Below, one piece after another: positions 4,212 through 61,368 of a DNA stretch of 64,000 nucleotides. A program made the position numbers and the translations under genes. How positions within the stretch are numbered: the first letter of the stretch is position 1; each line of letters starts with the position of its first letter. The DNA is from Microglena sp. YARC (taxonomy: Eukaryota > Chlorophyta > Chlorophyceae > Chlamydomonadales > Chlamydomonadaceae). The notes below the pieces were generated by a model that had not been told where the DNA came from, ran no database searches, and saw only the letters and a program-made list of their open reading frames with translations. The stretch is taken from assembly GCA_022414725.1 (NCBI GenBank), contig CM039462.1:95091363-95155362 (forward strand). Reading direction: 5' to 3'.

Positions 4212-4242
<31 letters not shown>

Positions 4243-4581
4243 ACAACCACATACAAACACCCACCATCCCACCCAAGACACCCCTTCCCTACCATTCTTC
4301 TTATCTATCTCTTGCAATTTGTCAGCGATGGATTCTTCACCTCTGACCCCCCCCCCCCCCAATCAAGACACCCGTTCCATACCATGCTTCTTAGCTATCT
4401 ACTGCAACTTGTCAGCAACGGATTCCTCACTTCTGACCCCCCCCCCCCCCCCACAACACACACACACACACACACACACACAACCACATACAAACACCCA
4501 CAATCCCACCCAAAACACCCCTTCCCTACCATTCTTCTTAGCTATCTCTTGCAATTGTCGGCGATGGATTCTTCACTTCTG

Positions 4582-4630
<49 letters not shown>

Positions 4631-6173
4631 ACACACCACCACACACACACGAACACCCACCCCACCACCCACCACCCAAGACACCCCTTCCCTACCATGC
4701 TTCTTAGCTAGTTCCTGCAACTTGTCAGCGATGGAGACATCCCACTTGTCGAAGATGTCCACATGGGTCTTAAACACACAGATGTGGGGACCCACCTGAA
4801 TGAGGGGGGGTGGGGTGGAGTGGGTGGGGGATGGGGTAGAGTTGGAGGGGGGGTCATTGCGCTTGTCAAAGAAGACTGAATGGGTGGGCTGGGTGGAGTG
4901 GGCTGGGGGTGGGGGATGAGGTGGGCAGGGGGTGGAGTGGGGGCTGGGGTGGCATCCCACTTGTCAAAGATGTCTGCATGGGTGGGCTAGAGTGGAGTGG
5001 GCTGGAGTGGGTGGGCTGGGGTTGGAGTGGACTGGGGTGGGTGAGCTGGGTGGGGGGAGGATGGGGTGGAGAGGGATGGTGTGGCATCCAACTTGTCGAA
5101 GATGTCTGCATGGGTGGGCAAGGGTGGAGTGGGCTGGGTGGGTGGGGATGTGAAGGGGTGGAGTGGACTGGGGTGGGTGGGATGGGGTGAGCTGGGGTGG
5201 GGAGTGGGGGTGGGATGGGGTGGAGTGGAATGGAGTGGAATCCCACTTGTCAAAGATGTCCGCATGGGTGGGATGGGGGGTGGGATGGAGTAGAGTGGAG
5301 TGGACAGGGATGGGTGGGATAGGGGGTGGGATGGGGTGGAGTGGAGTGGACAGGGTGGGATGGGGGTGGGATGGAGTGGACTGGGGTGGCTGGGATGAGG
5401 TGGAGTGGAGTGGACTGGGGTGGGATGGGGGGGGGATGGAGTAGAGTGGAGTGGGGTGGCTGGGATGGGATGGGGGGTGGGATGAGGTGGAGTGGAGTGG
5501 AGTGAACTGGGTGGGATGGAGTGGAGTGGACTGGGTGGGATGGGGGGTGGATGGAGTAGAGTGGAGTGGAGTGGGGTGGGATGGGGGTGGGATGAGGTGG
5601 AGTGGAGTTGACTGGGGTGGGATGGGGGGTGGGATGGAGTAGAGTGGAGTGGAGTGGGTGGCTGGATGGGGGGTGGGATGAGGTGGAGTGGAGTGGACTT
5701 GGGTGGGATGGGGGGGGGGGGGCAGCATTGATTATATACATAATACCAAATCACTAATATGGATGGCCAGAGGAAAAACTAACAAATAGACTTACTAAAC
5801 AAAAACAAAAATGGACGAACAAAACAAACAAATGGACAAACAAATACTTAAATATCTCAATAAACAAAAATGCAGATAAATGCAGAAAGCAATACATTAC
5901 CATCTCAGCCATGGCAAGCATCTCCTCCGCTGTGTCGACATCAGCAGCGATAGATGAACCAAATGAACATAATAAAGGTACAACATCCCCCCTGCAAGAC
6001 TGTCCATTACCATCTCCGCCATGGCAAGCATCTCCTCCGCCGTGTCGACATCAGCAGCAACGGAGAGGTTGGTCTTCTTCTTTGCCATCAGCTCCAGGCA
6101 CTTCTTGGCCATTGGGTTCTTGGCTACCTTGGCGCGCTCCTCGTAACGCATCCTCCTGCACACAGCAAGCAAT

Positions 6174-6217
<44 letters not shown>

Positions 6218-6876
6218 GTGTGTGTGTGGGAGGGCAAGGAGGTGGGAGAGGGGGGGGTAACGTGTGTGTGTGTGTGGGGGGTGGGGGGTAGGGGGTGGGG
6301 GGTGGGGGGCAAGGGAGGACGGGCAGGGGTCAACTCTTCCAGCTTATACCACACACCACCGCCACACATATCAGCCGTCTGATTGGCCGTCACCTCCCCC
6401 CCACACACACACCCACACACATACACCACCCACATCTCTAGATTGGAGAGAAGTGGTAGCCTCCACCTTGGCGTTGGGATCAGCCGTCTGATCGGCGGCC
6501 TCAAACTTGTGTTGGGATCAGCCGTCTGATTGGTTGTCACGCCCCCCCGCCCACCCACATCCTACCCCCCCCTCCCCCCCCCCCCCCCCCCCCCCCCCAT
6601 CTCTCCCGCCCCCTAACCACTACCAGCCACTCCCTTCCTTACTTGACAGGTTCAGCAGTTGAGGGGAGGGAAGTAGCAGCCTCCACCTTAGCGTTGGGAT
6701 CAGCCGTCTGATGGTGGTCACGAAGTCCTTCACCTTCTTGGCAGTTTCCTCACTGACCTTCTTGTGCTTCAGCAGCACCTACAAGCAACAACAGGTGACA
6801 GGTGTGTGTGTGTGCATGTGTACTTGGGTGCGTGCGTGTTTGGTTGCATGGTTGTGTGCGTGGTGGTGGTGGTTTT

Positions 6877-6922
<46 letters not shown>

Positions 6923-8508
6923 GTGGGGGATCGGATGAGGCAAGCAGGGAGGTGACGGGGGTGTGGGTGTGTGCACTGCTCCTTTTTTGTGGTACTCATG
7001 GCAGCTTCCTGCCAGCCCCATTAGCCAGCCACTGGGTCAAATCCAAAGCTTGCAGCTGCATTGGAATGCCTGTCATGTCAGCTTTCATACGCAATAGCAA
7101 GCTTCAAGTTTGGCCCAAGGACAGGTAAAGGGAATTGCCTAGAAGCTGGTACGCGTTTGTTTACATGGAGAAATAAAAATAGTGCTGGCAAAAATGCTTG
7201 CTTGCTTCAATTTTGCTTGCTTGCTGCACTATTACCTGTCTACTTTGGAGGATTAATTGAAAATCCCTCCCGGATGTTGTGGAGCGGGCTTGTCTTGGGT
7301 CAACAATGGCGTGTTGATGACAACAGAACGTCATGTAGCCCAAAACAATTACAGTGGTCGGGGCGGTAGCAACTGTGCGAGCGTTTGTGAGAATGAGGTG
7401 AGAGCTAAGAGACTGAGCTAAGAGACTGAGGTAAGAGCTATTAGTAATGTGAACAGCTCAGCCCCCCCCCCCCCCCCCCCCCCCCCCCCAAGATGCTGCC
7501 ATTGTACATTTATAAGACGAGCATGACAAGTAGTGCAAAAGCAGTACAAGCTTCTAGGCAAGGCAAGGCAACTTGAGGGGTTTGGGTGGAGGGACAGGTA
7601 GAGATGCAAGAGCTCTGATTAATGTGAACGGCTCGGCACCCTTTTTAAGATGCAGCGATTGTACATATAAAAGACAAGGCAAGGCAACTTGAGGGGTTAG
7701 GCAGAGGTACATGTAGATATGTTAGAGCTCTGAGTAATGTGAACGGCTCGGCACTCCTTTTAAGATGCAGCAATTGTATATTTCCAAGACGGGCATGACA
7801 AGCAGTACAAGCTTCTAGGCAAGGCAAGGCAACTAGAGGGGTTTCGGAGGAGGGACAGGTAGCGAGGTAAGAGCTATGGGTAATGTGAACGGCTCAGCAA
7901 CCCTAATGAGATGCAGCGACTGTCCATTTCCAAGAGCATGACAAGCAGTACAAGCTTCTGGGCAAGGCAAGGCAACTGGAGGGGTTTAGGAGGAGGGACA
8001 GGTACAGAGGTAAGAGCTATGGGTAATATGAACAGCTCAGCAACCCTTTTAAGATACAGCGATTGTACATTTATAAGACTGGCATGACAAGCAATACAAG
8101 AGCAATACAAGCTTATAGGCAAGGCAAGGCAACTGGAGGGGTTTAGGAGGAGAGACAGGTAGAGATGTACGAGGTATGACTCCTATGACTAATGTGAACG
8201 GCTCAGCACCCCTCATATTGTACATATACAAGACAAGGCAAGACAACTGGAGGGGTTTAGGAGGAGGGACAGGTAGAGATGTACGAGCTATGAGTAATGT
8301 ACAAAGCAAACAAGAAGACTGCCGTACATGTCCGCAAATGGCTCGGGTGTGATCTAGCCAGAAAAACAAAGGCTACCGTCAGGAGAGGGTTCGGGTTGCC
8401 CAGATTCGAGCGGCTGTGTTTGTCTGTTGTTTATCTGATGTTTGTCTCATATTTGTTTGTCTCATATTTGTGTATCTGATGTTTGTCTCATATTTGTGTG
8501 TGCTTGTG

Positions 8509-8545
<37 letters not shown>

Positions 8546-16659: not shown

Positions 16660-17285
16660 TGGTGGGGGACCTGTGGCGTCAAAAGTACTGGCAACAACTA
16701 AAGGATGGTTGAGTGTGGGTGGTGGGGTCCCAATGTGTGGTTGTGTGGTTGTGTGTGTAATGTGGTTGTGTGTGGGGTGTGGTGACCTGGTGGCGTCAAG
16801 GTCCAGCTGACTGCCCAAACAAACTAAGGGAATGATGAGTGGTGGTTGTGTCAATGTGTGTGGTGTGTGTGTGTAAGTGGGTGGGTGGTGGTGGTGACCT
16901 GTGGCGTCAAGGTCACTGCAAACACTAAGGATGGTGGAGTGTGTGTTGTATGTGTGTGTGTGGTGGTGTGTAAGTTGGTATGGTGTGACTGTGGCGTCAA
17001 GGTCAACTGGCCAAACACTAAAGGATGGTGAGTGTGTGTTGTCATGTGTGGTGTGTGGTGTGTAAGTGTGGATGGTGTGTGACTGTGGCGTCAAGGTCAC
17101 TGCCAACACTAAGGATGGTGAGTGTGTGTGTCATGTGTGTGTGTGTGTGTAAGTGGGTGTGGGGTGTGAAATGTTTGTGTCAAGGTCACTGCCAACACTA
17201 AGGATGTGAGTATTGTTTGCTTGGCCCACCCCCCACTCGGTGTGTGACTAGGGGGTACGCCAACACAGAGATGGTGAGTAGGGGG
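16660..17285 (+). repeat. Six or so tandem copies of exon A with donor
   Basis: Units of 75-125 bp each hold GTGGCGTCAAGGTCACTGCC, AACACTAAGGATG|GTGAGT (exon A with its donor), separated by GTGTGTG tracts. Many copies have one-base indels. Two A copies in better context are at about 17,555-17,590 and 19,526-19,559. Confidence 0.8.
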
Positions 17286-18976: not shown

Positions 18977-21900
18977 GGGGGGGGGGGGGGGGGGGAGGGG
19001 GGGGGGGGGGGGGAGGGGGGGGGGGGGGAGGGGGGGGGGGGCGGGGGGGGGGGAGGGGGGGGGGTGGGAGGGGTGGGGGGGGGCGGAGGGGGGGAGGGGG
19101 GGGAGGGGCCGGGGGCGGGGGGGGGGGGGGGGGGGGGGGGGGTGGGGGGGGCGGAGTTATGATTACAGGTCAGGGTACTTCAAAATGGTCCAAATTGGCC
19201 AGCGCTTAAGCGCACTTGAAACAAAAAAAACTGCGCTTTGTAGTGCAAAAAAGCGCAAAAAATGCTTGCTGCGCCCACGAGGGGTTCAAAAAATTCGCTT
19301 AAAAGCGCAGAGGGGGTCAAAAAAGTCAGCGCTGAAAAAGGCGCAAAGCGCGCGCCTTTGAATACCCCTGATTAGGTGTGACTAGGGGCACTTGTTTAAA
19401 AGTATTTCCTGCACGCATTGGTATGGTGTCTGAAATTGAAATTTTGAATCTGAATTTAATGAGCTGTCTACGACTTCTTAACCTCGCATTGGCCGGGTGA
19501 CTGAATTCTTGAGTTCACAAGACAGTGGGTGTCAAGGTCACTGCCCAACACTAAGGATGGTGAGTAGGGGGGTTAGGGCAGTGGGGAGGGGAGGGGAGGT
19601 GTAAGTTTTCTTGGGTTTTGAAATGAAAAGTTTCAGATGAGGACGAAGCTGTCCATCTAGAAAAAAAAAGTTTCAAAGGATGAGGGACGACCTGTCCTAA
19701 TAAAAAAAAAGAAGATTAAAAACCCAGATGAACAAGGGAGTGACACGCCCTTAGTGTTTGGAGTTGGACCAATTGGAACAAGGATTTCACGCTGTGCTGG
19801 GGATGGGGAATGGGTAGCCTCGCTGTAAACTATGGAGGGAGCGTAACTAGGTTGTTATGTTGTGCAATGTGCGGTGTGTGTCACCTTGTTTGCTGAACCT
19901 CGTCAAACCTTGTTCTGTAACACTCCGTGGCTGTCTCGCGTTCTTTGGCGTGCAACCTGTTTTCTGCCCTCGTGCTGTTCTCTCGGCTGTTCTTGCATGC
20001 CAACCTTGTTGCTGCCCTCATCGTGCTGTTTCTCGGCGGTTCTTGCGGAATGTGGTCTCGTATACCGCGCTTTGGTACAAAAAGCAGACAAGTGGGCCGC
20101 AGTTGCCTTAATAAACTGGGCTGTGCACCCTCTGGCTGTGACTAGGCCAGTCTCCTTCGGGATGACTTTGACTGTCAAATCTCCAACATCAAAGTGGTTT
20201 GGGGGCGGCAGTTTGAACTATCAATCTACCTGAAGAATGAGGTGACGTGACTGAAAAATGCAACTTGTCTGAAACTTTGCTTTCGAGTCGGAGAAAACAG
20301 GTGACTGTAATTTGTGGCGAGTTTATCGAGCTGCCTGTCGTTTGCCAAACGTCATTTGGTACGGTCCCAAATGCAATTTGTAGGGCGAAACTTACCTTAG
20401 GTTTCCCTAGCGTCATTCCGTTTGGCCGGCATCCGTAGCCGCACCCCCAATTTCGCTGCCAACGCTCGTTAGCGCACAGCCGTTTGGCGCACCACTGTTC
20501 GCGGCCAACCGTTCGCGCTCATCCCGTTAGCCGCACCCTGTTCGCCGTTACGCCGACCGTTAGCGCACCCTGTTCCGCGCCAACCTCCGTTGCGGCACGC
20601 TGTTCGCCTGCCACCTCTTAGCGGCACCCTGTTCCGCAGCCAACCGTTAGCCAGGCACCCTGTTCGGTGCCACCTTGCGTTAGGCGCACATACAGTTTTT
20701 CGCGCACAACCGTTAGCGCACACCGTTTGGCGCCCTGTCGCCCACCGTTAGCGCACACCTGTTCGTCCGCCACTCACGTTAGCGCAACCCTGTTCGCGGG
20801 CCAAACCAGCCGTTAAGCCGCACTCCTGTTTTCGCGCCACCCGTTACCGGCACCCTGTTCGCGCCATCCCGTTAGCGACTCCGTTTGCGCCCTGTCCCGC
20901 GCCACCACGTTACGCAACACCTGTTCGCGGCCACCCGTTAGCGCACCCTGTTCGCAGCCAACCCCGTTAGCGCACCCTGTTCGCCCACCGCGTTACCTGC
21001 ACCCGTTTGGCGCCCCTGTTCGCGGCCAACCCGACGTTAGAAGCACCCTGTTCGCAGAGCCACCGTTACGCAACCCGCACCGTTTGCGCCCCGTTCTTGC
21101 TCATGGTGGCGTTTTGCTCGTCCGGCAGTAACGTCCTGAATGTACCGAAGTCTCTAGAACCCATGGAGGGCGGTAAAAGTTCCTCCTTCCAGAAAAAATC
21201 CAACTCACCCCCTCTGCACGCACTCCCAGGTGCATCGGGTGCTACGGTGACACCCCTTACCCTACCAACAACCCACAGCCACGCCATGTCCGCACATCCC
21301 CACTCCTCCACCCCACCCTACCACCAGCACGCAGCATCCAACCATCCTTTGTCTTTGGACTCTCCCCCCCCACAACACACCCAAACCCCTCACCCCTCCA
21401 CGACCCAACCCCACCACCCAGGTCAACGGTGTTCTATGGTGACATTTAAGCAGAAGCTTAGTCGGAAGTTAAGAAAGCTGTGGTATAAGCTGGTGGGTGT
21501 GAGCAACAGCCCCCTAAATAAGCAGTTCCAGCACGAAACAAAATCCCACCCCCAGGCCAACGCCTAAACCAAAAGGTTGCCCCGCCCTAAAAATTGTAAA
21601 TAAAAGCTCTAAACTTCCCACCCTCGACCCACCCACCCCCCAGGTGCTATGGTGACATTAGCAACAAAAGTAAAGCAGGCAGGCCGGGTGTAAGCTTGTG
21701 GTGTGAGCAACAGCCCCCTAAAAACCAGTTTCCCCCCAATTACAAAATGCCCACGCCAACCAAGCATGAGCAGCCCCCCCCCCCAAAAAAACGGTTCCAC
21801 CCCTAAAAAAACAACTCCACCCCACCCCAACCCCCTCCCACTTCACCCCACCCACCCACACAGGAGCATCAGGGGCTATGGTGACATTGAGACACGAAAG

Positions 21901-24900
21901 TAAAAGGCAGCCGTGTGTAAGCTGGTGGTGCAGCAACAGCACCCTAAAAAAAAAGAAGTTTCCCACCCAAAGAAGAAAACAAACTCCACCCCATCCACCC
22001 ATCCCACCCACCCCACCCACCACCCACCCCACCGCAATAAGGAAGCAGTCAAGGTCTTGGTTACATTGAGCACGGAAATTAAAGCAGCCTGGTGTAAGCT
22101 GGTGGTGTAAAGCAACAGCCCCCGCACTGGGGCCATCGCTTCTACGAGGCCGAAGCCCTCCAAAGTGTCTGGACTTCAAGGGCGATTAATGTTTTTCTCA
22201 AAGAAGGAGATGACTGCTCATTGGGGATGAAATTTTTCAGCTCAAAGCAGTGGGCTGTTTCTTGGTTGTTGTTGTTTGGTTGTTTTCTGGTTGTTGGCTG
22301 TTTGTCTGGTTGTTGGTTGTTCTGGTTGTTTTGGTTGTTGGCTGGTTGTTGGCTTGTTTGTTGGTTGTTGTTGCTCGCTTTGTGCTCATTCTCATGCTTT
22401 TCTGTATTTCTTAGCCTATATAAAATAACCCTCCTTCAGTGTCTCGACTTCAAGGGCGATTAAATGTTTACTATGTTTGCTCACAGAAGGAGATGACCCG
22501 CCTCATTGGGGATGAAGTTCTCTCAGGCTGAGCGCAGGAGGGCCTGTTTTATTGTTGTTGCTAATTTTGTGTTCCAATTCTCTTTGCTTTCTGTTATTCT
22601 TTGGCCCAATGTCAAAGCCTCACAAGTGTCTCAACTTCCAGGCGATTATGTTTTTTTCTCACAGAAGGACGATGAGAACCGCCGTCATTGTGGATGAAGT
22701 TCTCAGCTGAGAGCAGGAGGGGCTGTTTTCATTGTTTTCTTTCTGGCATGGCTCGGTTTTTGTCCAATTTCATGTTGTCAGTTTTTTCAGTTTTTCAGAT
22801 TTTTACAGTTCTATTCAGATTTTTTTCCTCTGTCAGTTTTGACTTGATGGAGGAACTAAAATTTTTCTCAAAAGAAGGAGATGACCGCCTCATTGGGGAT
22901 GAAGTTTCCGGCTGAAAGCAAGGTGGGCTTCTTTTCCTTTCCTCTCAGTCATAGCATCGTTTTTTTGTCCAATTTCCGGGGTTTTTTTCCGACTTGTTTT
23001 CCCAGCTTCGTTTTCCAGCTTTGTCTTAGGTTTTTTTTTATGTTTTGTTTGAAATGTCGAAAGCTCAATCTTCAGACTTCAAAGCGATTACGTTTCTCAA
23101 AGAAGGAGATGACAGCTCATTGGGGGATGCAATTCTCAGCTCACAGCAGGTGGCGTTATTCCTTTTTTACTTATGTTCAGCTCGTTTGTTGTTCCAATTC
23201 AGGTCATGCACTTTTTTGTATATTCCTTTCAGTTTTTAGCCTCTTTAGCGGTAACAATGGTCTAGTGGTATACCAGATTGCTAAAGAATGAAGAGTCGGT
23301 TTTCGACTCCACACCTTCAGTCGCTCTTGGCGTTGGCAGGTCGCGTCACGCGGCGATGTAGCTTTGTCCATCGTGGTAGGAGACCGCTCCCACCCGCGTA
23401 ACGACGGGCTAAGCCTTAAAACCACGCCCCACCAGGCGTCTATCTACTGACCTTATCTCCTTCAACGTTTTTCCTCAGCTTGTTTGACAGCTCAAGTATT
23501 TGGAACAACCAGGGTAGAAGCAAGTTTTCTCAAAGAAGGAGAAACATGACCGCCTTATTGGGGATGAAACTCTCAGCTGAGAGGGGGGGTCCAGAAGTGG
23601 TGGTCAGGCTCTCGTTAATTGTAGGTCGGCAGCGTACGTTACGGAAACATGAGGGATCGGTTTGTCCAGATAGTGTCGCAGAAGTAGGAAGGGTAGGGAG
23701 ACAAATGCACGGGAAGGTAATACGACCCTATGGATCCCATTATTTGTATGGCAGTGACATGTTGCTCATTAAAATTTGTTTTCAGATTTGTTTCAGCTAG
23801 TTTCGAATCATATTTGGATCACAAGGGTAGAAGCAAGTTTTCTCAAAGAAGGAGATGAACGCCTCATTGGGGATGAAATTCTCAGCTGAGAGCAGGTGGG
23901 CTGTTTTGCTCTCTTTGTCATAGCTCGGTTTTTTGCCCAAATTTCAGGTTTTTTCCGGCTTGTTTCCAGCTCTGTATTTTGACAGATTTCAGGTTATTAG
24001 TTTTTTGTTTTGTTTTCTTCAGCCCGTTTTCAGCTCATATTTGGATCACAAGGGCAAAAGCAAGTTTTCTCAAAGAAGGAGATGACCGCCTCATTGGGAA
24101 TGAAGTTTTCAGCTGGGAGCAGGTGGGCGTTTTCCTTCTGGATAGCTCGTTTGTTTTGTCCAATTTCAGTTTTTTTTTCCGAGGCTCGTTTTTCAGCTTG
24201 TCTTATTTTGTTTTTTTTTATGTTTTGTTGAAATGTCTAAAGCTCATCTCGGACTCCACGGGCGATTATGTTTTCTCTCAAAGAAGGAGATTGCCTACCA
24301 CCCCCGGGATAAATTCTCAGCTGAGAGCAAGGTGGGCTTTTTTCCTCTCTGTCATAGCTCGGTTTTTGTCCAATTCAGTTTTTTCCCGCTGTTTCCAGTC
24401 GTTTTCAGCTTGTCTTAGGTTTTTTCATGTTTTTATTTGTATGTCTAAAGCTAATCTTCGGACTTCAAGGGCGATTCAAGGGCGATTTTCCATCCAAAGC
24501 TAAATTTTGTGTTTCTCTTTAATTTTGTGTTCATTCTCTAGCTTTCTATTATTTCTTTAGCCTATGTCGAGCCCTCAAAGTGTCTCAACTTCCAGGGCGC
24601 TATGTTTCTCTCAGAGAAGGAGATGATCGCCTCATTGGGGATGAAGTCTCGGCTGAGAGCAGGTTGGGTTGTTTCTGTTGTTGCTAATTTATGTGTTCAT
24701 TCTTGCTTTTCTGTTATTCTTTATTAGCCTACGTGTCGAGCCCTCAAAGTGTCCAACTTCCAGGGCGATTATTTTTCTCTCAGAGAAGCAGATGATCGCC
24801 TCATTGGGGATGAAGTTCTCGCTGAGAGCAGGGTGGGTTGTTCTGCGTTGTTGCCTAATTTTGTTCATTCTCTTGCTTTCTGTTATTTTCTTTAGCCTAT

Positions 24901-27900
24901 GTCGAGCCCTCAAAGTGTCTCAACTCCAGGGCGATTATGTTTCTTTTCTCTCAGAGAAGGAGATGATCGCCTCATTGGGATGAAGTTCTCGGCTGAGAGC
25001 AGGTGGGTTGTTTTCCTCTGGTTGTTGCTAATTTGTGTTCATTCTCTTGCTTCTGTTATTTTCTTTAGCCTTATGTCGGAGCCCTCAAAAGTGTCTCAAC
25101 TTCCAGGGGCGATTTTTCTCTCAGAGAAGGAGAATGATCGCCTCATTGGGATGAAGTTCTCGGCTGAGAGCAGTGGGTTGTTTTCTCGTTGTTGCTAATT
25201 TTGTGTTCATTTCTCTTGTGCTGTAATTTCTTTAGCCGTATGTCGAGCCCTCAAAAGTGTCTCAACTTCCAGGGCGCTAATGTTTTCTCTCAGAGAAGGA
25301 GATGATCGCCTCATTGGGGAAGAATGAAGTTCTCGGCTGAGAGCAGGTGGGTGTTTCTGGTTGTGTGCTAATTTGTGTTTCCATTCTCTTGCTTTCTGTT
25401 ATTTCTCAGCCTATGTCGAGCCCTCAAAGTGTCCTCAACTTCCAGGCGATTATGTTTCTCTCAGAGAAGGAGATGATCCTCATTGCCTCATTGGGGGATG
25501 AAGTCGGCTGAGAGCAGGTCTGGTTGTTTGCTAAATTTTGAGATGAGATGATCTTTCATTGTTAGAGAAAATTAAGAACCCCTATCCAGCCCTCAAAGTG
25601 TCTCAAACTTGTGTTTTCAGAGAAGGAGATGATTCGCCTCATGGGGATGCAGTTTTCTCGGCTTTGCTCTGTGTTCATCTCTAGTTTTTTCTCTGTTAGC
25701 CTATGTCGAGCCCTCAAAAGTCTCAAATTCCAGGCGATGTTTTCTCATGATCGCCTCATTGGGGATGAAGTTCTCGGCTGAGAGCAGGCGATTGAGATTT
25801 CTCAAATGTCGAGGGTGGGCCGCTGTTTTTCTGCGCTGAGAGCTGGGTTGTTTCTGGTTGTTGCTATTTTTTTTCATTCTCATTGCTTTCTGTTTTATTT
25901 CTTTAAGCCTATGTCGATGTGTCTCAAGGGGCGGATTATGTTTTTCTCGGAAGGAGATGATCTGAGGAGCTCGGCTGAGGTGGGTTGTTTTCTGTTGTTG
26001 CTAATTGTGTTCATGTCTTCTTGCTTTCTGTTAATTCTTTAGCCTATGTCGAGCCTCAAAGTGTCTCAACTTCCAGGCGATTTCATGTTTTCTCTCAGAG
26101 AAGGAGATGATCGCCTCATTGGGGATGAAGTTCTCGCTGAGAGCAGGTGGGTTGTTTTCTGGTTGTTTGCTAATTTTGTGTTCATTCTCTGCTTTCTGTT
26201 ATTTTCTTTAGCCTATGTCGAGCCCGTCAAGTCTCTCAGAGAAAAGGAGATGTCGCCTCAATGAAGTTCTTGAGAGAGGTGGGTTGTTTTCTGGTTGTTG
26301 CAGGTTCATTCTGCGCTTTTTCTGTTTATTAGCGGCTGTTCAAAGTGTCTCTCAGAGAAGGAGATGATCGCCATCATTGGGATAAAAAGTCTCATTTGGG
26401 TGTTGCTAATTTTGAAATCTCATTGTTCTCGGCTGAGAGCAGGTGGGTTTGAGAAGCAGGTTTGTTTTCTGGTTGTTGCTAATTTTGTGTTCATTCTCTT
26501 GCTTTTCTGTTATTTCTTTAGCCTATGTCTCAACTTCCAGATTATGTTTTCTCTCAGAGAAAGGAGATGGATGCCCTCATTGGGGGAAGTGTGAGAGCAG
26601 GTTGGGTTGTTTTCTCAACTTCCTTGCTTTTGTTAGGGCCCTCAAAAGTGTCTCATTCCAAATGTTTTCTCTCAGAAGAAGGAGATGATCGCCTCATTGG
26701 GGATGAAGTTTCTCGGCTGAGAGCAGGTGGGTTGTTTTCTGGTTGTTGCTAATTTTGTGTTCATTCTCTTTTGCTTTCTGTTATTTCTTTAGCCTATGTT
26801 CGAGCCCTCAAAGTGTCTCAACTTCCAGGGCGATTATGTTTTCTCTCAGAGAAGGAGATGATCGCCTCATTGGGATCGCTCGGGGGATGAAGTTCTCGCT
26901 AGAGCAGGTGGGTTGTTTTCTGGTTGTTGCTAATTTTGTGTTCATTCTCTTGCTTTCTGTTATTTCTTTAGCCTATGTCGAGCCCTCAAAGTGTCTCAAC
27001 TTCCAGGGCGATTATGTTTTCTCTCAGAGAAGGAGATGATCGCCTCATTGGGGATGAAGTTCTCGGCTGAGAGCAGGTGGGTTGTTTTCTGGTTGTTGCT
27101 AATTTTGTGTTCATTCTCTTGCTTTCTGTTATTTCTTTAGCCTATGTTCGAGCCCTTCAAAGTGTCTCAACTTCCAGGGCGATTAATGTTTCTCTCAGAG
27201 AAGGAGATGATCGCCTCATTGGGGATGAAGTTCTCGGCTGAGAGCAGGTGGGTTGTTTTCTGGTTGTTGCTAATTTTGTGTTCATTCTCTTGCTTTCTGT
27301 TATTTCTTTAGCCTATGTCGAGCCCTCAAAGTGTCTCAACTTCCAGGGCGATTATGTTTTCTCTCAGAGAAGGAGATGATCGCCTCATTGGGGATGAAGT
27401 TCTCGGCTGAGAGCAGGTGGTTGTTTTCTGGTTGTTGCTAATTTTGTGTTCATTCTCTTGCTTTCTGTTATTTCTTTAGCCTATGTCGAGCCCTCAAAGT
27501 GTCTCAACTTCCAGGGCGATTATGTTTTCTCTCAGAGAAGGAGATGAATCGCCTCATTGGGGATGAAGTTCTCGGCTGAGAGCAGTGGGTTGTTTTCTGG
27601 TTGTTGCTAATTTTGTGTTCATTCTCTTGCTTTCTGTTATTTCTTTAGCCTATGTCGAGCCCTCTGTGTCTCAACTTCCAGGGCGATTATGTTTTCTCTC
27701 AGAGAAGGAGATGATCGCCTCATTGGGGATGAAGTTCTCGGCTGCAGAGCAGCGCCTCAGGGATGAAGTTGGCTTTTGTTTTCTGGTTGTTGCTAATTTT
27801 GTGTTCATTCTCTTGCTTTCTGTTATTTCTTTAGCCTATGTCGAGCCCTCAAAGTGTCTCAACTTCCAGGGCGATTATGTTTTCTCTCAGAGAAGGAGAT

Positions 27901-30900
27901 GATCGCCTCATTGGGATGAAGTTCTCGGCTGAGAGCAGGTGGTTGTTTTCTGGTTGTTGCTAATTTTGTGTTCATTCTCTTGCTTTCTGTTATTTCTTTA
28001 GCCTATGTCGAGCCCTCAAAGTGTCTCAACTTCCAGGGCGAATTATGTTTTCTCTCAGAGAAGGAGATGATCGCCTCATTGGGGATGAAGTTCTCGGCTG
28101 AGAGCAGGTGGGTTTGTTTTCTGGTTGTTGCTAATTTTGTGTTCATTCTCTTGCTTTCTGTTATTTCTTTAGCCTATGTCGAGCCCTCAAAGTGTCTCAA
28201 CTTCCAGGGCGATTATGTTTTCTCTCAGAGAAGGAGATGATCGCCTCATTGGGGATGAAGTTCTCGGCTGAGAGCAGGTGGGTTGTTTTCTGGTTGTTGC
28301 TAATTTTGTGTTCATTCTCTTGCTTTCTGTTATTTCTTTAGCCTATGTCGAGCCCTCAAAGTGTCTCAACTTCCAGGGCGATTATGTTTTCTCTCAGAGA
28401 AGGAGATGATCGCCTCATTGGGGATGAAGTTCTCGGCTGAGAGCAGGTGGGTTGTTTTCTGGTTGTTGCTAATTTTGTGTTCATTCTCTTGCTTTCTGTT
28501 ATTTCTTTAGCCTATGTCGAGCCCTCAAAGTGTCTCAACTTCCAGGGCGATTATGTTTTCTCTCAGAGAAGGAGATGATCGCCTCATTGGGGATGAAGTT
28601 CTCGGCTGAGAGCAGGTGGGTTGTTTTCTGGTTGTTGCTAATTTTGTGTTATTCTCTTGGGCGAGCCTTTCTCTCAGTGTCGCCTCATTGGATTCTTTAG
28701 TGTTCCTATATAGCCTATGTCGAGCCCTCAAAGTGTCTCAACTTCCAGGGCGATTATGTTTTCTCTCAGAGAAGGAGATGATCGCCTCATTGGGGATGAA
28801 GTTCTCGGCTGAGAGCAGGTGGGTTGTTTTCTGGTTGTTGCTAATTTTGTGTTCATTCTCTTGCTTTCTGTTATTTCTTTAGCCTATGTCGAGCCCTCAA
28901 AGTGTCTCAACTTCCAGGGCGATTATGTTTTCTCTCAGAGAAGGAGATGATCGCCTCATTGGGGATGAAGTTCTCGGCTGAGAGCAGGTGGTTGTTTTCT
29001 GGTTGTTGCTAATTTTGTGTTCATTCTCTTGCTTTCTGTTATTTCTTTAGCCTATGTCGAGCCCTCAAAGTGTCTCAACTTCCAGGGCGATTATGTTTTC
29101 TCTCAGAGAAGGAGATGATCGCCTCATTGGGGATGAAGTTCTCGGCTGAGAGCAGGTGGGTTGTTTTCTGGTTGTTGCTAATTTTGTGTTCATTCTCTTG
29201 CTTTCTGTTATTTCTTTAGCCTATGTCGAGCCCTCAAAGTGTCTCAACTTCCAGGCGATTATGTTTTCTCTCAGAGAAGGAGATGATCGCCTCATTGGGG
29301 ATGAAGTTCTCGGCTGAGAGCAGGTGGGTTGTTTTCTGGTTGTTGCTAATTTTGTGTTCATTCTCTTGCTTTCTGTTATTTCTTTAGCCTATGTCGAGCC
29401 CTCAAAGTGTCTCAACTTCCAGGGCGATTATGTTTTTCTCTCAGAGAAGGAGATGATCGCCTCATTGGGGATGAAGTTCTCGGCTGAGAGCAGGTGGGTT
29501 GTTTTCTGGTTGTTGCTAATTTTGTGTTCATTCTCTTGCTTTCTGTTATTTCTTTAGCCTATGTCGAGCCCTCAAAGTGTCTCAACTTCCAGGGCGATTA
29601 TGTTTTTCTCTCAGAGAAGGAGATGATCGCCTCATTGGGGATGAAGTTCTCGGCTGAGAGCAGGTGGGTTGTTTTCTGGTTGTTGCTAATTTTGTGTTCA
29701 TTCTCTTGCTTTCTGTTATTTCTTTAGCCTATGTCGAGCCCTCAAAGTGTCTCAACTTCCAGGGCGATTATGTTTTCTCTCAGAGAAGGAGATGATCGCC
29801 TCATTGGGGATGAAGTTCTCGGCTGAGAGCAGGTGGGTTGTTTTCTGGTTGTTGCTAATTTTGTGTTCATTCTCTTGCTTTCTGTTATTTCTTTAGCCTA
29901 TGTCGAGCCCTCAAAAGTGTCTCAACTTCCAGGGCGATTATGTTTTCTCTCAGAGAAGGAGATGATCGCCTCATTGGGGATGAAGTTCTCGGCTGAGAGC
30001 AGGTGGGTTGTTTTCTGGTTGTTGCTAATTTTGTGTTCATTCTCTTGCTTTCTGTTATTTCTTTAGCCTATGTCGAGCCCTCAAAGTGTCTCAACTTCCA
30101 GGGCGATTATGTTTTTCTCTCAGAGAAGGAGATGATCGCCTCATTGGGATGAAGTTCTCGGCTGAGAGCAGGTGGGTTGTTTTCTGGTTGTTGCTAATTT
30201 TGTGTTCATTCTCTTGCTTTCTGTTATTTCTTTAGCCTATGTCGAGCCCTCAAGTGTCTCAACTTCCAGGGCGCTATTATGTTTTTCTCTCAGAGAAGGA
30301 GATGATCGCCTCATTGGGGATGAAGTTCTCGCTGAGAGCAGGTGGGTTGTTTTCTGGTTGTTGCTAATTTTGTGTTCATTCTCTTGCTTTCTGTTATTTC
30401 TTTAGCCTATGTCGAGCCCTCAAAGTGTCTCAACTTCCAGGGCGATTATGTTTTTCTCTCAGAGAAGGAGATGATCGCCTCATTGGGGATGAAGTTCTCG
30501 GCTGAGAGCAGGTGGGTTGTTTTCTGGTTGTTGCTAATTTTGTGTTCATTCTCTTGCTTTCTGTTATTTCTTTAGCCTATGTCGAGCCCTCAAAAGTGTC
30601 TCAACTTCCAGGGCGATTATGTTTTCTCTCAGAGAAGGAGATGATCGCCTCATTGGGGATGAAGTTTCTCGGCTGAGAGCAGGTGGGTTGTTTTCTGGTT
30701 GTTGCTAATTTTGTGTTCATTCTCTTGCTTTCTGTTATTTCTTTAGCCTATGTCGAGCCCTCAAAGTGTCTCAACTTCCAGGGCGATTATGTTTTCTCTC
30801 AGAGAAGGAGATGATCGCCTCATTGGGGATGAAGTTCTCGGCTGAGAGCAGGTGGGTTGTTTTCTGGTTGTTGCTAATTTTGTGTTCATTCTCTTGCTTT

Positions 30901-33900
30901 CTGTTATTTCTTTAGCCTATGTCGAGCCCTCAAAGTGTCTCAACTTCCAGGGCGATTATGTTTTCTCTCAGAGAAGGAGATGATCGCCTCATTGGGGATG
31001 AAGTTCTCGGCTGAGAGCAGGTGGGTTGTTTTCTGGTTGTTGCTAATTTTGTGTTCATTCTCTTGCTTTCTGTTATTTCTTTAGCCTATGTCGAGCCCTC
31101 AAAGTGTCTCAACTTCCAGGGCGAATTATGTTTTCTCTCAGAGAAGGAGATGATCGCCTCATTGGGGATGAAGTTCTCGGCTGAGAGCAGGTGGGTTGTT
31201 TTCTGGTTGTTGCTAATTTTGTGTTCATTCTCTTGCTTTCTGTTATTTCTTTAGCCTATGTCGAGCCCTCAAAGTGTCTCAACTTCCAGGGCGATTATGT
31301 TTTCTCTCAGAGAAGGAGATGATCGCCTCATTGGGGATGAAGTTCTCGGCTGAGAGCAGGTGGGTTGTTTTCTGGTTGTTGCTAATTTTGTGTTCATTCT
31401 CTTGCTTTCTGTTATTTCTTTAGCCTATGTCGAGCCCTCAAAGTGTCTCAACTTCCAGGGCGATTATGTTTTCTCTCAGAGAAGGAGATGATCGCCTCAT
31501 TGGGGATGAAGTTCTCGGCTGAGAGCAGGTGGGTTGTTTTCTGGTTGTTGCTAATTTTGTGTTCATTCTCTTGCTTTCTGGTTATTTCTTTAGCCTATGT
31601 CGAGCCCTCAAAGTGTCTCAACTTCCAGGGCGCTAATGTTTTCTCTCAGAGAAGGAGATGATCGCCTCATTGGGGATGAAGTTCTCGGCTGAGAGCAGGT
31701 GGGTTGTTTTCTGGTTGTTGCTAATTTTGTGTTCATTCTCTTGCTTTCTGTTATTTCTTTAGCCTATGTCGAGCCCTCAAAGTGTCTCAACTTCCAGGGC
31801 GATTATGTTTTCTCTCAGAGAAGGAGATGATCGCCTCATTGGGGATGAAGTTCTCGCTGAGAGCAGGTGGGTTGTTTTCTGGTTGTTGCTAATTTTGTGT
31901 TCATTCTCTTGCTTTCTGTTATTTCTTTAGCCTATGTCGAGCCCTCAAAGTGTCTCAACTTCCAGGGCGATTATGTTTTCTCTCAGAGAAGGAGATGATC
32001 GCCTCATTGGGGATGAAGTTCTCGGCTGAGAGCAGGTGGGTTGTTTTCTGGTTGTTGCTAATTTTGTGTTCATTCTCTTGCTTTCTGTTATTTCTTTAGC
32101 CTATGTCGAGCCCTCAAAGTGTCTCAACTTCCAGGGCGATTATGTTTTCTCTCAGAGAAGGAGATGATCGCCTCATTGGGGATGAAGTTCTCGGCTGAGA
32201 GCAGGTGGGTTGTTTTCTGGTTGTTGCTAATTTTGTGTTCATTCTCTTGCTTTCTGTTATTTCTTTAGCCTATGTCGAGCCCTCAAAGTGTCTCAACTTC
32301 CAGGGCGATTATGTTTTCTCTCAGAGAAGGAGATGATCGCCTCATTGGGGATGAAGTTCTCGGCTGAGAGCAGGTGGGTTGTTTTCTGGTTGTTGCTAAT
32401 TTTGTGTTCATTCTCTTGCTTTCTGTTATTTCTTTAGCCTATGTCGAGCCCTCAAAGTGTCTCAACTTCCAGGGCGATTATGTTTTCTCTCAGAGAAGGA
32501 GATGATCGCCTCATTGGGGATGAAGTTCTCGGCTGAGAGCAGGTGGGTTGTTTTCTGGTTGTTGCTAATTTTGTGTTCATTCTCTTGCTTTCTGTTATTT
32601 CTTTAGCCTATGTCGAGCCCTCAAAGTGTCTCAACTTCCAGGGCGATTATGTTTTCTCTCAGAGAAGGAGATGATCGCCTCATTGGGGATGAAGTTCTCG
32701 CTGAGAGCAGGTGGGTTGTTTTCTGGTTGTTGCTAATTTTGTGTTCATTCTCTTGCTTTCTGTTATTTCTTTAGCCTATGTCGAGCCCTCAAAGTGTCTC
32801 AACTTCCAGGGCGATTATGTTTTCTCTCAGAGAAGGAGATGATCGCCTCATTGGGGATGAAGTTCTCGGCTGAGAGCAGGTGGGTTGTTTTCTGGTTGTT
32901 GCTAATTTTGTGTTCATTCTCTTGCTTTCTGTTATTTCTTTAGCCTATGTCGAGCCCTCAAAGTGTCTCAACTTCCAGGGCGATTATGTTTTCTCTCAGA
33001 GAAGGAGATGATCGCCTCATTGGGGATGAAGTTCTCGGCTGAGAGCAGGTGGGTTGTTTTCTGGTTGTTGCTAATTTTGTGTTCATTCTCTTGCTTTCTG
33101 TTATTTCTTTAGCCTATGTCGAGCCCTCAAAGTGTCTCAACTTCCAGGGCGATTATGTTTTCTCTCAGAGAAGGAGATGATCGCCTCATTGGGGATGAAG
33201 TTCTCGGCTGAGAGCAGGTGGGTTGTTTTCTGGTTGTTTGCTAATTTTGTGTTCATTCTCTTGCTTTCTGTTATTTCTTTAGCCTATGTCGAGCCCTCAA
33301 AGTGTCTCAACTTCCAGGGCGATTATGTTTTCTCTCAGAGAAGGAGATGATCGCCTCATTGGGATGAAGTTCTCGGCTGAGAGCAGGTGGGTTGTTTTCT
33401 GGTTGTTGCTAATTTTGTGTTCATTCTCTTGCTTTCTGTTATTTCTTTAGCCTATGTCGAGCCCTCAAAGTGTCTCAACTTCCAGGGCGATTATGTTTTC
33501 TCTCAGAGAAGGAGATGATCGCCTCATTGGGGATGAAGTTCTCGGCTGAGAGCAGGTGGGTTGTTTTCTGGTTGTTGCTAATTTTGTGTTCATTCTCTTG
33601 CTTTCTGTTATTTCTTTAGCCTATGTCGAGCCCTCAAAGTGTCTCAACTTCCAGGGCGATTATGTTTTCTCTCAGAGAAGGAGATGATCGCCTCATTGGG
33701 GATGAAGTTCTCGGCTGAGAGCAGGTGGGTTGTTTTCTGGTTGTTGCTAATTTTGTGTTCATTCTCTTGCTTTCTGTTATTTCTTTAGCCTATGTCGAGC
33801 CCTCAAAGTGTCTCAACTTCCAGGGCGATTATGTTTTCTCTCAGAGAAGGAGATGATCGCCTCATTGGGGATGAAGTTCTCGGCTGAGAGCAGGTGGGTT

Positions 33901-36900
33901 GTTTTTCTGGTTGTTGCTAATTTTGTGTTCATTCTCTTGCTTTCTGTTATTTCTTTAGCCTATGTCGAGCCCTCAAAGTGTCTCAACTTCCAGGGCGATT
34001 ATGTTTTCTCTCAGAGAAGGAGATGATCGCCTCATTGGGGATGAAGTTCTCGGCTGAGAGCAGGTGGGTTGTTTTCTGGTTGTTGCTAATTTTTGTGTTC
34101 ATTCTCTTGCTTTCTGTTATTTCTTTAGCCTATGTCGAGCCCTCAAAGTGTCTCAACTTCCAGGGCGATTATGTTTTCTCTCAGAGAAGGAGATGATCGC
34201 CTCATTGGGGATGAAGTTCTCGGCTGAGAGCAGGTGGGTTGTTTTTCTGGTTGTTGCTAATTTTGTGTTCATTCTCTTGCTTTCTGTTATTTCTTTAGCC
34301 TATGTCGAGCCCTCAAAGTGTCTCAACTTCCAGGGCGATTATGTTTTCTCTCAGAGAAGGAGATGATCGCCTCATTGGGGATGAAGTTCTCGGCTGAGAG
34401 CAGGTGGGTTGTTTTCTGGTTGTTGCTAATTTTGTGTTCATTCTCTTGCTTTCTGTTATTTCTTTAGCCTATGTCGAGCCCTCAAAGTGTCTCAACTTCC
34501 AGGGCGATTATGTTTTCTCTCAGAGAAGGAGATGATCGCCTCATTGGGGATGAAGTTCTCGGCTGAGAGCAGGTGGGTTGTTTTCTGGTTGTTGCTAATT
34601 TTGTGTTCATTCTCTTGCTTTCTGTTATTTCTTTAGCCTATGTCGAGCCCTCAAAGTGTCTCAACTTCCAGGGCGATTATGTTTTCTCTCAGAGAAGGAG
34701 ATGATCGCCTCATTGGGGATGAAGTTCTCGCTGAGAGCAGGTGGGTTGTTTTCTGGTTGTTGCTAATTTTGTGTTCATTCTCTTGCTTTCTGTTATTTCT
34801 TTAGCCTATGTCGAGCCCTCAAAGTGTCTCAACTTCCAGGGCGATTATGTTTTCTCTCAGAGAAGGAGATGATCGCCTCATTGGGATGAAGTTCTCGCTG
34901 AGAGCAGGTGGGTTGTTTTCTGGTTGTTGCTAATTTTGTGTTCATTCTCTTGCTTTCTGTTATTTCTTTAGCCTATGTCGAGCCCTCAAAGTGTCTCAAC
35001 TTCCAGGGCGATTATGTTTTTCTCTCAGAGAAGGAGATGATCGCCTCATTGGGGATGAAGTTCTCGGCTGAGAGCAGGTGGGTTGTTTTCTGGTTGTTGC
35101 TAATTTTGTGTTCATTCTCTTGCTTTCTGTTATTTCTTTAGCCTATGTCGAGCCCTCAAAGTGTCTCAACTTCCAGGGCGATTATGTTTTCTCTCAGAGA
35201 AGGAGATGATCGCCTCATTGGGGATGAAGTTCTCGGCTGAGAGCAGGTGGGTTGTTTTCTGGTTGTTGCTAATTTTGTGTTCATTCTCTTGCTTTCTGTT
35301 ATTTCTTTAGCCTATGTCGAGCCCTCAAAGTGTCTCAACTTCCAGGGCGATTATGTTTTCTCTCAGAGAAGGAGATGATCGCCTCATTGGGTATGAAGTT
35401 CTCGGCTGAGAGCAGGTGGGTTGTTTTCTGGCTGTTGCTAATTTTGTGTTCATTCTCTTGCTTTCTGTTATTTCTTTAGCCTATGTCGAGCCCTCAAAGT
35501 GTCTCAACTTCCAGGGCGATTATGTTTTCTCTCAGAGAAGGAGATGACTGCCTCATTGGGGATGAAATTATCAGCTGAGAGCAGGTGGGCTGTTTTATTG
35601 TTTTTCTTTCTGGCATGGCTCGGTTTTTATCCAATTTCATGTTGTCAGTTTTTTCAGGTTTTCAGGTTTATACAATTGTCTTCAGAATTTTTCCTGTCAT
35701 GTTTTGACTTGTAGGGAGAAGCTAAATTTTCTCAAAGAAGGAGATGACCGCCTCATTGAGGATGAAGTTCTCAGCTGAGAGCAGGAGGGCTGTTTTCTTG
35801 TTTTTCTTTCTGGCATGGCTCGGTTTTGTCCAATTTCATGTTGTCAATTTTTCAGTTTTTACAGTTTTATACAGTTTTGTTCAGATTTTTTCCTGTCATG
35901 TTTTGACTTGTTGGGAGAAGCTAAATTTTCTCAAAGAAGGAGATGACCGCCTCATTGAGGATGAAATTCTCAGCTGAGAGCAGGTGGGTTGTTTTCAGGT
36001 TGTTGTCAGCTATTTTGAGGTTGTGAGGTGGTGGGTGTGAGCAACAGCCCCAGGACTGGTGCCATTGATTTATGATGGAGTTCTCAGTTGAGAGCTGGTT
36101 GGTTGTTTTCTGGTTGTTGCCAGCTCATTCTTTTGTTCATTTCAGATTGTTTTTGCAGCCATGTTGAGGTTATTAGGTGGTGGTTGTAATCAACAGCCCA
36201 AGGACTGGTCCCATTGGTTTATGATGAAGTTTTCAGCCAAGAGCAGTTTGGTTGTTTTCTGGTTGTTGCCAGCTCATTATTTTGTCCATTTAAGGGTTTT
36301 TTCAGCTGTTTTAGGTTATTATTATTAGGTGGTGGGTGTGAGCAACAGCCCCAGGACTGGTCCCATTAGTTTATGATGAAGATTTCAGCTGAGAGCAGGT
36401 GGGTTGTTTTCTGGTTGTTGGTTGTTTTCTGGTTGTTGTCAGCTCGTTTTTGTCAGTGCCACTACACTGCCACCACCCACCACCCCAACTCCCTTAGAAC
36501 ACTTAGAGTGACTGCTGCCCTAAGGGGAGGCAGTCGCTACCACTTGTTAACTAACCATGGGTCAAACCATGTCTGCTCGCAATTATCCCCACCCCACCGC
36601 CAAGTCTCACATCTCACAGGTCGAAGCTTAAGTTGTATTTTGAATTTGAATTTGAATGTTAATGTTACTGCCCACACAGGACGAAGCTGAAGGTAGATGC
36701 ACGTTTTGGGAAGGAGAGACCTGTCACCACCACCACCACTGCTACTACCACTACCACCACCACCACCACCACTGCTACTACCACTACCACCACCACCACC
36801 ACCACCACTACCACTACTTTGTCGGCCACCAATACTTACAAAGCCGCCAACCTCCACCACACCACCATCACCACCACTGCTACCACCACTACCACCACCA

Positions 36901-37748
36901 CCACCACTACCACTACCACTACTTCGTCGGCCACCAATACTAACAATGACGCCACCCTCACCACCACCACCATCACCACCAATACCACCACCAATACCAC
37001 CACCACCGCCAATACCACCACCACCGCCAATACCACCACCACCACCACCACCATCACCGCCAATACCACCACCACCGCCAATACCACCACCACCACCACC
37101 ACCATCACCGCCAATACCACCATCACCCTCACCGCCAATACCACCATTACCCTCACCGCCACCACCCTGTGCCATGGGTCAAAGCTGAAGGTGGATGCAT
37201 GCGTTGGGAAGGTCGGATCCTTCACCACCACTGCTACCACCACCACCACCACCACCACCTCTTCAGCCACCTTGTCGACTACCAATACCAACAACAACAA
37301 CAACAACTAACAACAACAACAACACCCATACCACCACTATGAATTGAATTTGAATGTTGATGTTACTGCTACCACAAGACGGAGCTGAAGGTGGATGCAC
37401 GCGTTGTGATGGAGGTACCCTTCTCCACCACCACCACTTTTGAACTTGAATTTGAATTTGATTATTAATATTACTGCCGCCACAGGACGAAGCTGAAGGT
37501 GGATGCACGTTTTGGGAAGGTGGGACCCTTCACCACCACTGCTACCACCACCACCACCACCACCTCTTCAGCCACCTCGTCGACCACCATTACGAACAAC
37601 AACACCAATACCACCACCACTATGAATTTAATTTGATTATTGATGTTACTGCCGCCACAGGACGAAGCTGAAGGTGAATGCTCGTTTTGGGAAGGAGGGA
37701 CCCATGAAGCCTGCTTTGAACTTTGGCGTGAATATCGACATGAAATAA
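16670..37748 (+). CDS. Unidentified strand-rich protein gene with massively duplicated exons (types A-D)
   Basis: Four exon types splice in phase. A (GVKVTANTKD, ending GATG|GTGAGT) joins B (CAG|GTGCATCG, giving KDGASGAMVTL). B reads on to KLVGVSNSPRTGAI and then exon C (GRLMFFSKKEM, ASLGMKFSAES). C's donor GAGCAG|GTGGG joins D (CACAG|GACGAAG) to give ESRTKLKVDARFGKEG and, in the last copy, MKPALNFGVNIDMK and stop TAA at 37,746-37,748. I do not recognise the family. Alternating hydrophobic/polar residues and the C-terminal strand suggest a beta-barrel of an outer membrane or plastid envelope; the last 28 residues faintly resemble the end of OEP24-type pores, a weak guess. The 5' end is not found and may lie in the gap. 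Which duplicated exons are used cannot be told from DNA alone. Confidence 0.5.
17340..17595 (+). repeat. Exon A copies with their natural upstream intron
   Basis: GGCCGGGTGCTGAATTTGAA-type intron sequence, repeated near 17,365-17,425, 17,445-17,500 and 17,520-17,560, precedes exon A. The same upstream block recurs at 18,600-18,725, 18,850-18,930 and 19,425-19,560, so the repeated unit is intron plus exon. Confidence 0.7.
17596..18530 (+). repeat. 30-bp minisatellite derived from the exon A/donor junction, about 30 copies
   Basis: Unit is GTGAGTAGGGGCGGCC, AACACTCTGGGTAT. It contains the exon A end (GCCAACACT) and the donor with its intron start (GTGAGTAGGGG), so the array probably grew from that splice site. 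Units differ mainly by single-base indels. Confidence 0.85.
18531..18930 (+). repeat. Two further exon A copies with upstream intron
   Basis: Exon A copies end near 18,722 (CTAAGGAATG|GTGAGC, one extra A) and 18,926 (CTAAGGATG|GGAGT, donor T lost). A-run at 18,727-18,742. Confidence 0.7.
18931..19155. repeat. About 220-bp near-pure G tract
   Basis: Mostly G with scattered A, C or T. Starts just after the broken donor of an exon A copy, as other G/C runs here do. It has strong potential for G-quadruplexes; its length may be unreliable. Open frames of poly-Gly are artefacts. Confidence 0.9.
19171..19370 (+). mobile_element. hAT-type MITE, copy 1
   Basis: About 200 bp, from CAGGGTACTTCAAAA to TTTGAATACCCCTG: a 14-bp imperfect terminal inverted repeat. 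Interior shows the family's nested GCGC blocks (GCGCTTAAGCGCACTTGAAA, AAAAGCGCAAAAA). No perfect 8-bp duplication (TTACAGGT versus ATTAGGTG). Confidence 0.75.
19420..19570 (+). CDS. Exon A, best-preserved copy
   Basis: Exon 19,526-19,559 between AAGACAG|TGGGTG and GGATG|GTGAGT. Encodes GVKVTA and NTKD, but one extra C (GCCCAAC) shifts this copy. The upstream intron (TGAATTTAATGAGCTGTC... GGCCGGGTGACTGAATTCTTG) matches the other A copies. Confidence 0.5.
19571..20440. other. Intron-like sequence, no recognised exon
   Basis: Lies between exon A and exon B of the plus-strand gene. Contains GAGG/AAAG-rich stretches (19,575-19,720) and ordinary mixed DNA with short open frames of no recognisable family. 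Confidence 0.4.
20441..21090. repeat. 27-bp minisatellite CCGTTAGCGCACCCTGTTCG, about 22 copies
   Basis: Unit CCGTTAGCGCACCCTGTTCG followed by CGGCCAA. Indels are frequent. It ends directly upstream of the first exon B copy block and may lie in an intron. Confidence 0.85.
21230..22135 (+). CDS. Exon B, five tandem copies
   Basis: Copies start at about 21,230, 21,421, 21,641, 21,863 and 22,045, each after a CCCAG or CACAG acceptor. They read GASGAMVTLS, TKVKAA, KLVGVSNSP with variation; the second has KQKLSRKLRKLWYKLVGVS. Spacing is about 200 bp. The introns between are C-rich (CCACCCC). The last copy runs directly into PRTGAIAST and exon C. Several have indels. Confidence 0.55.
22136..24500 (+). 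repeat. Diverged copies of exon C at the array's left flank
   Basis: About nine or ten units near 22,165, 22,430, 22,620, 22,850, 23,070, 23,520, 23,840, 24,065, 24,270 and 24,465 keep the core CTCAAAGAAGGAGATGACCG, CCTCATTGGGGATGAA and GCTGAGAGCAG|GTGGGC. Their introns are longer than in the array (about 150-250 bp) and T-rich. This suggests an older layer of duplication than the homogenised array that follows. Confidence 0.8.
23251..23456 (+). mobile_element. tRNA-derived SINE, copy 1
   Basis: Has an A box (TGGTCTAGTGGTA) and a decayed B box (GGTTTTCGACTCC), then GTCGCTCTTGGCG, GTAGGAGACCGCTCCC and ACCACGCCCCACCAGGCGT, matching the copy at 40,554. It sits in an intron between diverged exon C copies. 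No clear target duplication. Confidence 0.8.
24501..35565 (+). repeat. 169-bp tandem array, about 65 units, each an exon C plus intron
   Basis: Unit = 105-nt exon (CCTATGTCGAGC to GCTGAGAGCAG) + 64-nt intron (GTGGGTTG to TTTCTTTAG). The intron has a branch-point-like GCTAAT and a pyrimidine tract. One exon frame is fully open, 35 codons, reading RALKVSQLPGRLCFLSE, KEMIASLGMKFSAES; because 105 is divisible by three, successive exons stay in phase. About 50 copies from 26.9 kb on are nearly identical; those at 24.5-26.9 kb are shuffled and truncated. Exon and intron are equally conserved, so homogenisation rather than selection on the protein explains the uniformity. The other two frames contain stops. 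Confidence 0.9.
35566..36015 (+). repeat. Diverged exon C copies at the array's right flank
   Basis: Three copies near 35,540, 35,740 and 35,935 keep TCTCAAAGAAGGAGATGACCG and AGCTGAGAGCAG but have long T-rich introns with GGCATGGCTCGGTTTT, like the copies at 22.7-24.4 kb. The array thus has old flanks and a young centre. Confidence 0.8.
36016..36460 (+). repeat. Three hybrid units joining exon B end to exon C end
   Basis: Units of about 150 bp near 36,030, 36,180 and 36,335 read GGTGGGTGTGAGCAACAGCC, CCAGGACTGGTGCCATT (VGVSNSPRTGAI), then GATGAAGTTCTCAGCTGAGA. They lack the middle of exon C, so they look like deletion products of a B-C block. Confidence 0.75.
36680..37600 (+). repeat. Exon D copies 1-4 separated by (ACC)n
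   Basis: Copies begin at 36,680, about 37,168, about 37,376 and 37,486, reading TKLKVDARFGK with variants. Acceptors CACAG or CACAAG precede three of them. After each, ACC/ATC trinucleotide runs (36,725-37,160, 37,225-37,320, 37,425-37,440, 37,530-37,620) give poly-Thr, poly-His or poly-Pro frames that I do not count as coding. Confidence 0.75.
37661..37748 (+). CDS. Terminal exon D with stop codon
   Basis: After GCCGCCACAG the exon reads TKLKVNARFGKEGPMKP, ALNFGVNIDMK, TAA. The G|ACG phase matches the end of exon C (AGC AG|). This is the only D copy with the full tail, so it is the likely real C-terminus of the plus-strand gene. An A-rich stretch follows at 37,745-37,770; no clear poly(A) signal. 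Confidence 0.65.
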
Positions 37749-51348: not shown

Positions 51349-51399
51349 ATCAGTTGCGCTAAAGCGTACGCCACTGCGGACGTTGAGAAGCTCGGCATC

Positions 51400-58798: not shown

Positions 58799-58809
58799 CT
58801 ATGAATAAA

Positions 58810-61361: not shown

Positions 61362-61368
61362 CTGTGCA

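Follow-up and report, generated by a model that had tools for sequence, protein, structure and literature searches.

A 64,000-nucleotide stretch of the genome of the green alga Microglena sp. YARC (contig CM039462.1, positions 95,091,363 to 95,155,362; hereafter the window), located on a 195-Mb contig of the 568-Mb genome, contains a long array of 169-bp tandem units. Judged from sequence comparison, this array is most probably (probability about 0.82) a tandem repeat within the last intron of a gene that encodes a small protein, born of duplication across a 5' splice junction and consisting of copies that are tolerated in splicing. An initial annotation had described the units as complete 105-nt exons, each with a 64-nt intron, and had proposed either a giant, copy-number-variable repeat protein or a satellite derived from a splice-competent exon unit. 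The second proposal comes near to the picture supported by the evidence.

The array was delimited by wraparound alignment, which resolved 67 units (about 65 in the initial annotation) at 24,480-35,640 on the forward strand: 15 degraded units (24,480-26,792), 51 core units (26,793-35,479) and one unit at the right edge. Tandem Repeats Finder (TRF) called a period of 169 at 24,524-25,528 and 26,662-35,596. A genome search with the unit, using a tool that ignores very common words, gave four matches, all at the window locus. Related copies were also present outside the annotated interval, at 22.4-24.3 kb and 35.5-36.4 kb. The reported splice signals (GT...AG) were found in 50 of the 51 core units and in only 8 of the 15 degraded ones. 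Across the whole last intron, AGCAGGTGGG[TC] occurred 56 times and TTTCTTTAG 57 times. The consensus was matched exactly by 20 of the 51 core units, and the core contained four substitutions in the exon part and three in the intron part, in agreement with the earlier statement that both are equally conserved. The exon part is as conserved as the intron part because the copies are young or homogenised, and this equality is neutral on coding, arguing neither for nor against it. The core further contained 108 indel bases, 60 of them within homopolymers, and many of the other 48 were concentrated in a small number of units carrying longer insertions (26,793, 27,649 and 28,511).

The origin of the unit was traced through a related gene. 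When the last-exon peptide was compared with the genome, one locus besides the window was found (C1:179,944,834-179,944,917, 64% identical), and more of the related gene was present within the 10 kb upstream of this match at C1:179.94 Mb. The sole relative returned by protein search was EukProt P0001 (238 aa), which as a query returned only itself. Residues 119-142 and 141-210 of P0001 and its last exon matched the C1 locus exactly, residues 58-118 matched piecewise with piece ends that run into the intron, and residues 1-57 were outside the sequence stretch used. EukProt thus includes this species. In P0001 the penultimate exon is a single 70-residue piece (TGAAGASVKLQ...KMKADSK), joined to the last exon (TKLKVDARIGK...). 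Compared with it, the 169-bp unit consists of the 3' part of this longer exon, the donor and the early intron; what had been taken for a complete exon is a truncated piece of one. Homology to P0001 places the array between the penultimate and the last exon, and since these two exons (22,042-22,250 and 37,661-37,748) flank the array, it most probably lies in the last intron. The features of the locus are the following:

16857..17211, + strand: 94-bp x 3.9 array, with units made of the preceding exon's 3' end (VKVTANTKDG) and the donor GGTGAGT
21231..21930, + strand: acceptor-bearing partial copies of the penultimate exon's 5' end (exon B of the initial annotation), with P0001 matches at 21454, 21631 and 21845
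22042..22250 (end points approximate), + strand: full-length penultimate exon, placed by tblastn of P0001 residues 148-188 at 22060-22182 and by alignment to the paralog exon
About 22,251 to 37,660, + strand: last intron
22399..24350, + strand: diverged copies of the exon 3' end and donor, with longer introns between them
24480..35640, + strand: 169-bp array of 67 units, each combining a truncated 3' portion of the penultimate exon with the donor and the first 64 nt of the intron, ending in TTTCTTTAG
35530..36420, + strand: diverged copies to the right of the array
36651..37525, + strand: acceptor-bearing partial copies of the last exon's 5' end
37661..37748, + strand: last exon (TKLKVNARFGKEGPMKPALNFGVNIDMK, stop)

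The related gene carried a tandem array of its own (83 bp x 21.7) just downstream of its penultimate exon, at the same junction as the array in the window. Its 83-bp units contained a degenerate form of LASTFEIKMKADSK, and no unit of this array was present in the P0001 protein model. The intron parts of the two arrays shared a 22-nt similarity, a level reached by 4 of 2000 shuffles, which is most simply explained by shared intron ancestry.

Partial exon copies were then surveyed for 25 exons at six gene loci of three families, with an E threshold of 0.05. They comprised both UMP synthase genes (window and C5), the related gene, the last exon of the window gene, and two TCP-1 genes identified through PF00118, in one of which a doubled partial exon had already been visible before selection. 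The survey left out the 169-bp array, the window's penultimate exon, the paralog's last exon, the UMP synthase exon at about 6,780-6,640, the first exons of UMP synthase and one TCP-1 match with an internal stop (2458-2856 of L043). Partial sense-strand copies were present near 18 of the 25 exons, and 80 copies were sense versus three antisense. Among the sense copies, 39 lay upstream and carried the exon 5' end, 32 lay downstream and carried the 3' end, seven were internal, one included both ends and one had the contrary arrangement (Fisher p about 1e-19, with copies that are non-independent). Tandem duplication across a splice junction necessarily yields such an arrangement. Since a comparison at the protein level can detect copies only where exon sequence is included, and arrays lacking any recognised exon part are also present, no preference of duplication for junctions is claimed. 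TRF repeats with periods of 60-1000 were present in 18 of 20 sampled 10-kb stretches along C1. In three of these samples (L021, L022 and L024), tandem repeats made up more than 80% of the sequence; L021, for instance, held a 98 bp x 81 array and L024 one of 104 bp x 37.

The pattern was followed at the UMP synthase gene of the window:

1217..11255, - strand: UMP synthase gene, with several exons partially copied in the adjoining introns

Examples are a 111-bp x 4.8 repeat at 1762-2293 and a 153-bp x 3 repeat at 1133-1599. The named relatives of this gene were those of green algae (such as Chlamydomonas eustigma, C. reinhardtii and Dunaliella salina). At the second UMP synthase locus (C5:14437001-14441000, L042) the same junctions were copied with different unit lengths. 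EukProt P0048 matched the C5 locus with 100% identity over residues 154-214 and 215-285; it contains each exon once, and partial copies flank the exons both on C5 and in the window. The two TCP-1 genes showed the same pattern of partial copies beside exons.

The state of the copied splice sites was assessed with 11 donors and 11 acceptors placed by eye. GT was kept in 31 of 32 downstream donor copies, where decay equal to that of the other 38 junction bases predicts about 26.7, and AG was kept in 34 of 38 upstream acceptor copies, where about 31.5 is predicted. Together, 65 of 70 copied junctions had GT or AG against about 58 expected, an expectation that is rough, with the alignment left free within 130 nt. 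The copied sites were thus mostly intact, and the counts give at most slight evidence of selection for keeping them. They bear on one alternative, in which array units occasionally act as cassette exons or decoy donors and array length tunes expression or splicing. The donors and TTTCTTTAG acceptors of the units are intact, and the copied junctions elsewhere are slightly better kept than under equal decay, as this alternative would have it, but the surplus over expectation is slight, and in the P0001 and P0048 models each exon is present once. We regard it as unlikely.

A giant, copy-number-variable protein, translated from all or many 105-nt units spliced in series, is very improbable. In its favor, GT...AG is present in nearly all core units, and the consensus exon is open and phase-symmetric (1 + 102 + 2 nt), as had been annotated. 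The 105-nt frame was said to be open in every unit; this was the case in 30 of the 51 core units, whose exons are 105 nt and open, and failed in the rest of the core, while 4 of the 15 degraded units were scored open. Among 2000 dinucleotide shuffles of the 105-nt exon, 60% had at least one open frame and 23% were open in the annotated frame. An open frame is common by chance at such composition, and that of the unit is weak evidence. The frame was also compared with the related gene, where the spacing from a conserved GGGCGA to AAGGAG is 30 nt, versus 32 nt in the array consensus. Among 51 measured copies, which include the full penultimate exon of the window (32 nt), the spacing was 32 nt in 43, 33 nt in five, and 28, 36 and 41 nt in one each. 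Because of this 2-nt shift, EPSKCLNFQGDYVF and KEMIASLGMKFSAES fall in different frames, and about half of the annotated 35 residues are therefore out of frame with respect to the related protein. The frame of the unit is not that of the parent protein. No unit of the related gene's array enters its protein model, and truncated, one-site copies of the same kind flank ordinary exons in other genes. The inclusion of some array units in transcripts is conceivable.

It is still less probable that the array is largely an assembly artefact. Its left part (24.48-26.79 kb, 15 units) is rich in indels, with 365 indel bases versus 160 substitutions, the differences within the core are mostly indels, and much of this core variation looks like long-read noise. 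Diverged copies on both flanks are, however, unlike read noise, and the same holds for arrays of different units found in the related gene, in UMP synthase (C1 and C5) and in the TCP-1 genes. The exact copy number of the array is uncertain. An array of spliced-leader, small nuclear RNA or other small-RNA genes, suggested by the unit size, the donor and a AATTTTGTG stretch, which we take to resemble an Sm site, can be dismissed as extremely improbable, as the unit stems from a coding exon and no Rfam match was found in the window at gathering thresholds.

Several observations weigh against an intronic array born of junction duplication and tolerated in splicing. In arrays from random stretches, a donor-like motif was present in 8 of 57 versus 4.4 (sd 1.9) in shuffles; this count was reached by 18 of 300 shuffles, reversed units gave 2 of 57, and the enrichment is weak. 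Unlike most of the arrays observed, the 169-bp unit also has a good acceptor (TTTCTTTAG), and cassette inclusion of array units is conceivable. The full penultimate exon of the window also has the 32-nt spacing (+2) in this assembly, through different bases, and the extra TC is also found in a nearby diverged copy at about 24.3 kb. The frameshift may thus be older than the array and belong to the parent exon, or may reflect poor polishing, rather than being the array's own. Finally, the EukProt models may be predictions, and the splicing pattern is inferred from sequence.

Under the preferred reading, of an intronic array derived from the penultimate exon's own junction, the founding event would be a tandem duplication spanning the 5' splice junction of this exon. 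Later copies would each inherit the truncated exon end, the donor and the start of the intron, and the about 51 near-identical copies would result from a recent burst or from strong homogenisation. Splicing would tolerate junction duplications as long as the site belonging to the full exon prevails, after which further expansion would be nearly free. The donor of the full exon would be joined to the acceptor of the last exon, and the copies would leave with the intron. Duplications across donors or acceptors would be recurrent and act on other genes of the genome too. The use of exon-proximal sites in vivo, a duplication mechanism of slippage or unequal exchange, and the neutrality of the copies are inferred.

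In tandem exon duplication and in repeat proteins, whole exons are copied in frame with both splice sites. The arrays described here are likewise tandem copies of exon sequence, with nearly all copies truncated. Tandem duplication as treated in a review (PMC3443670) likewise extends over the border between exon and intron and duplicates splice signals. There, a new intron arises from a single duplication, whereas in the present case introns that already exist lengthen as one junction is copied many times, and no new intron is seen in the protein models. Another intronic tandem repeat is the 38-bp VNTR6-1 in TERT intron 6, which (PMC11830802) resembles the present array in its position and in a possible effect on splicing. 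It differs in that the units here contain an exon edge and a splice site and occur at many exons of several genes. The genome of a related green alga, Haematococcus lacustris, is rich in tandem repeats, with short tandem repeats that build up complex patterns across tens of kilobases, and splice-junction copies are not described in the text covered (PMC7617258). No description of splice-junction copy arrays was found in a literature coverage that mostly excludes subscription journals, and novelty is provisional.

The window gene's penultimate exon contains small indels in the reading frame in this assembly, exons 1-3 were not found in the window by comparison with P0001, and a gap of 1000 N occupies 15,571-16,570; this copy of the gene may itself have decayed. 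For the product, neither a Pfam match above the cut-off nor a PDB sequence match was obtained. An identity as a porin or plastid OEP24, suggested by resemblance, was not adopted after these comparisons. A 31-bp x 30 array at 17589-18521 has a GTGAGT donor at its start, directly after an AAGGATG exon end, and AAGGATGGTGAGT occurs five times between 16.8 and 21.2 kb of the window.

Within the last intron, a short dispersed element at 23245-23430 is probably a short interspersed nuclear element (SINE). A first look gave 1871 candidate copies, of which 40 were scored, and the 39 others were 85-87% identical. It carries what we take to be tRNA-like A and B boxes; ARAGORN found no tRNA. Further features were a Copia-like element at 51214-56931 (RVT_2, integrase core) with in-frame stops (TGA at 52,978 and TAA at 53,647), and, at 57769-63061 on the minus strand, non-LTR-type reverse transcriptase (RVT_1) and endonuclease/exonuclease domains. 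An alternative genetic code was rejected for the Copia-like frame, as no single reassignment explains both TGA and TAA.

At the loci described here, authentic splice sites face competition from near-identical copies within their own introns; P0001 and P0048 nevertheless use one copy per exon. It is possible, at somewhat below even odds, that introns in many genes of this genome contain runs of intact duplicates of their own splice sites (tens in the present case) through continual junction duplication, and that the spliceosome reliably picks the exon-proximal member. If RNA confirms this, false predictions of multi-exon repeat proteins would be possible in such genomes, position could be tested against strength in splice-site choice, and a concrete, continuing route of intron growth would be at hand. 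The genome would then be a natural experiment on splice-site choice and intron growth, and certain arrays may have been recruited as decoys or cassette exons.

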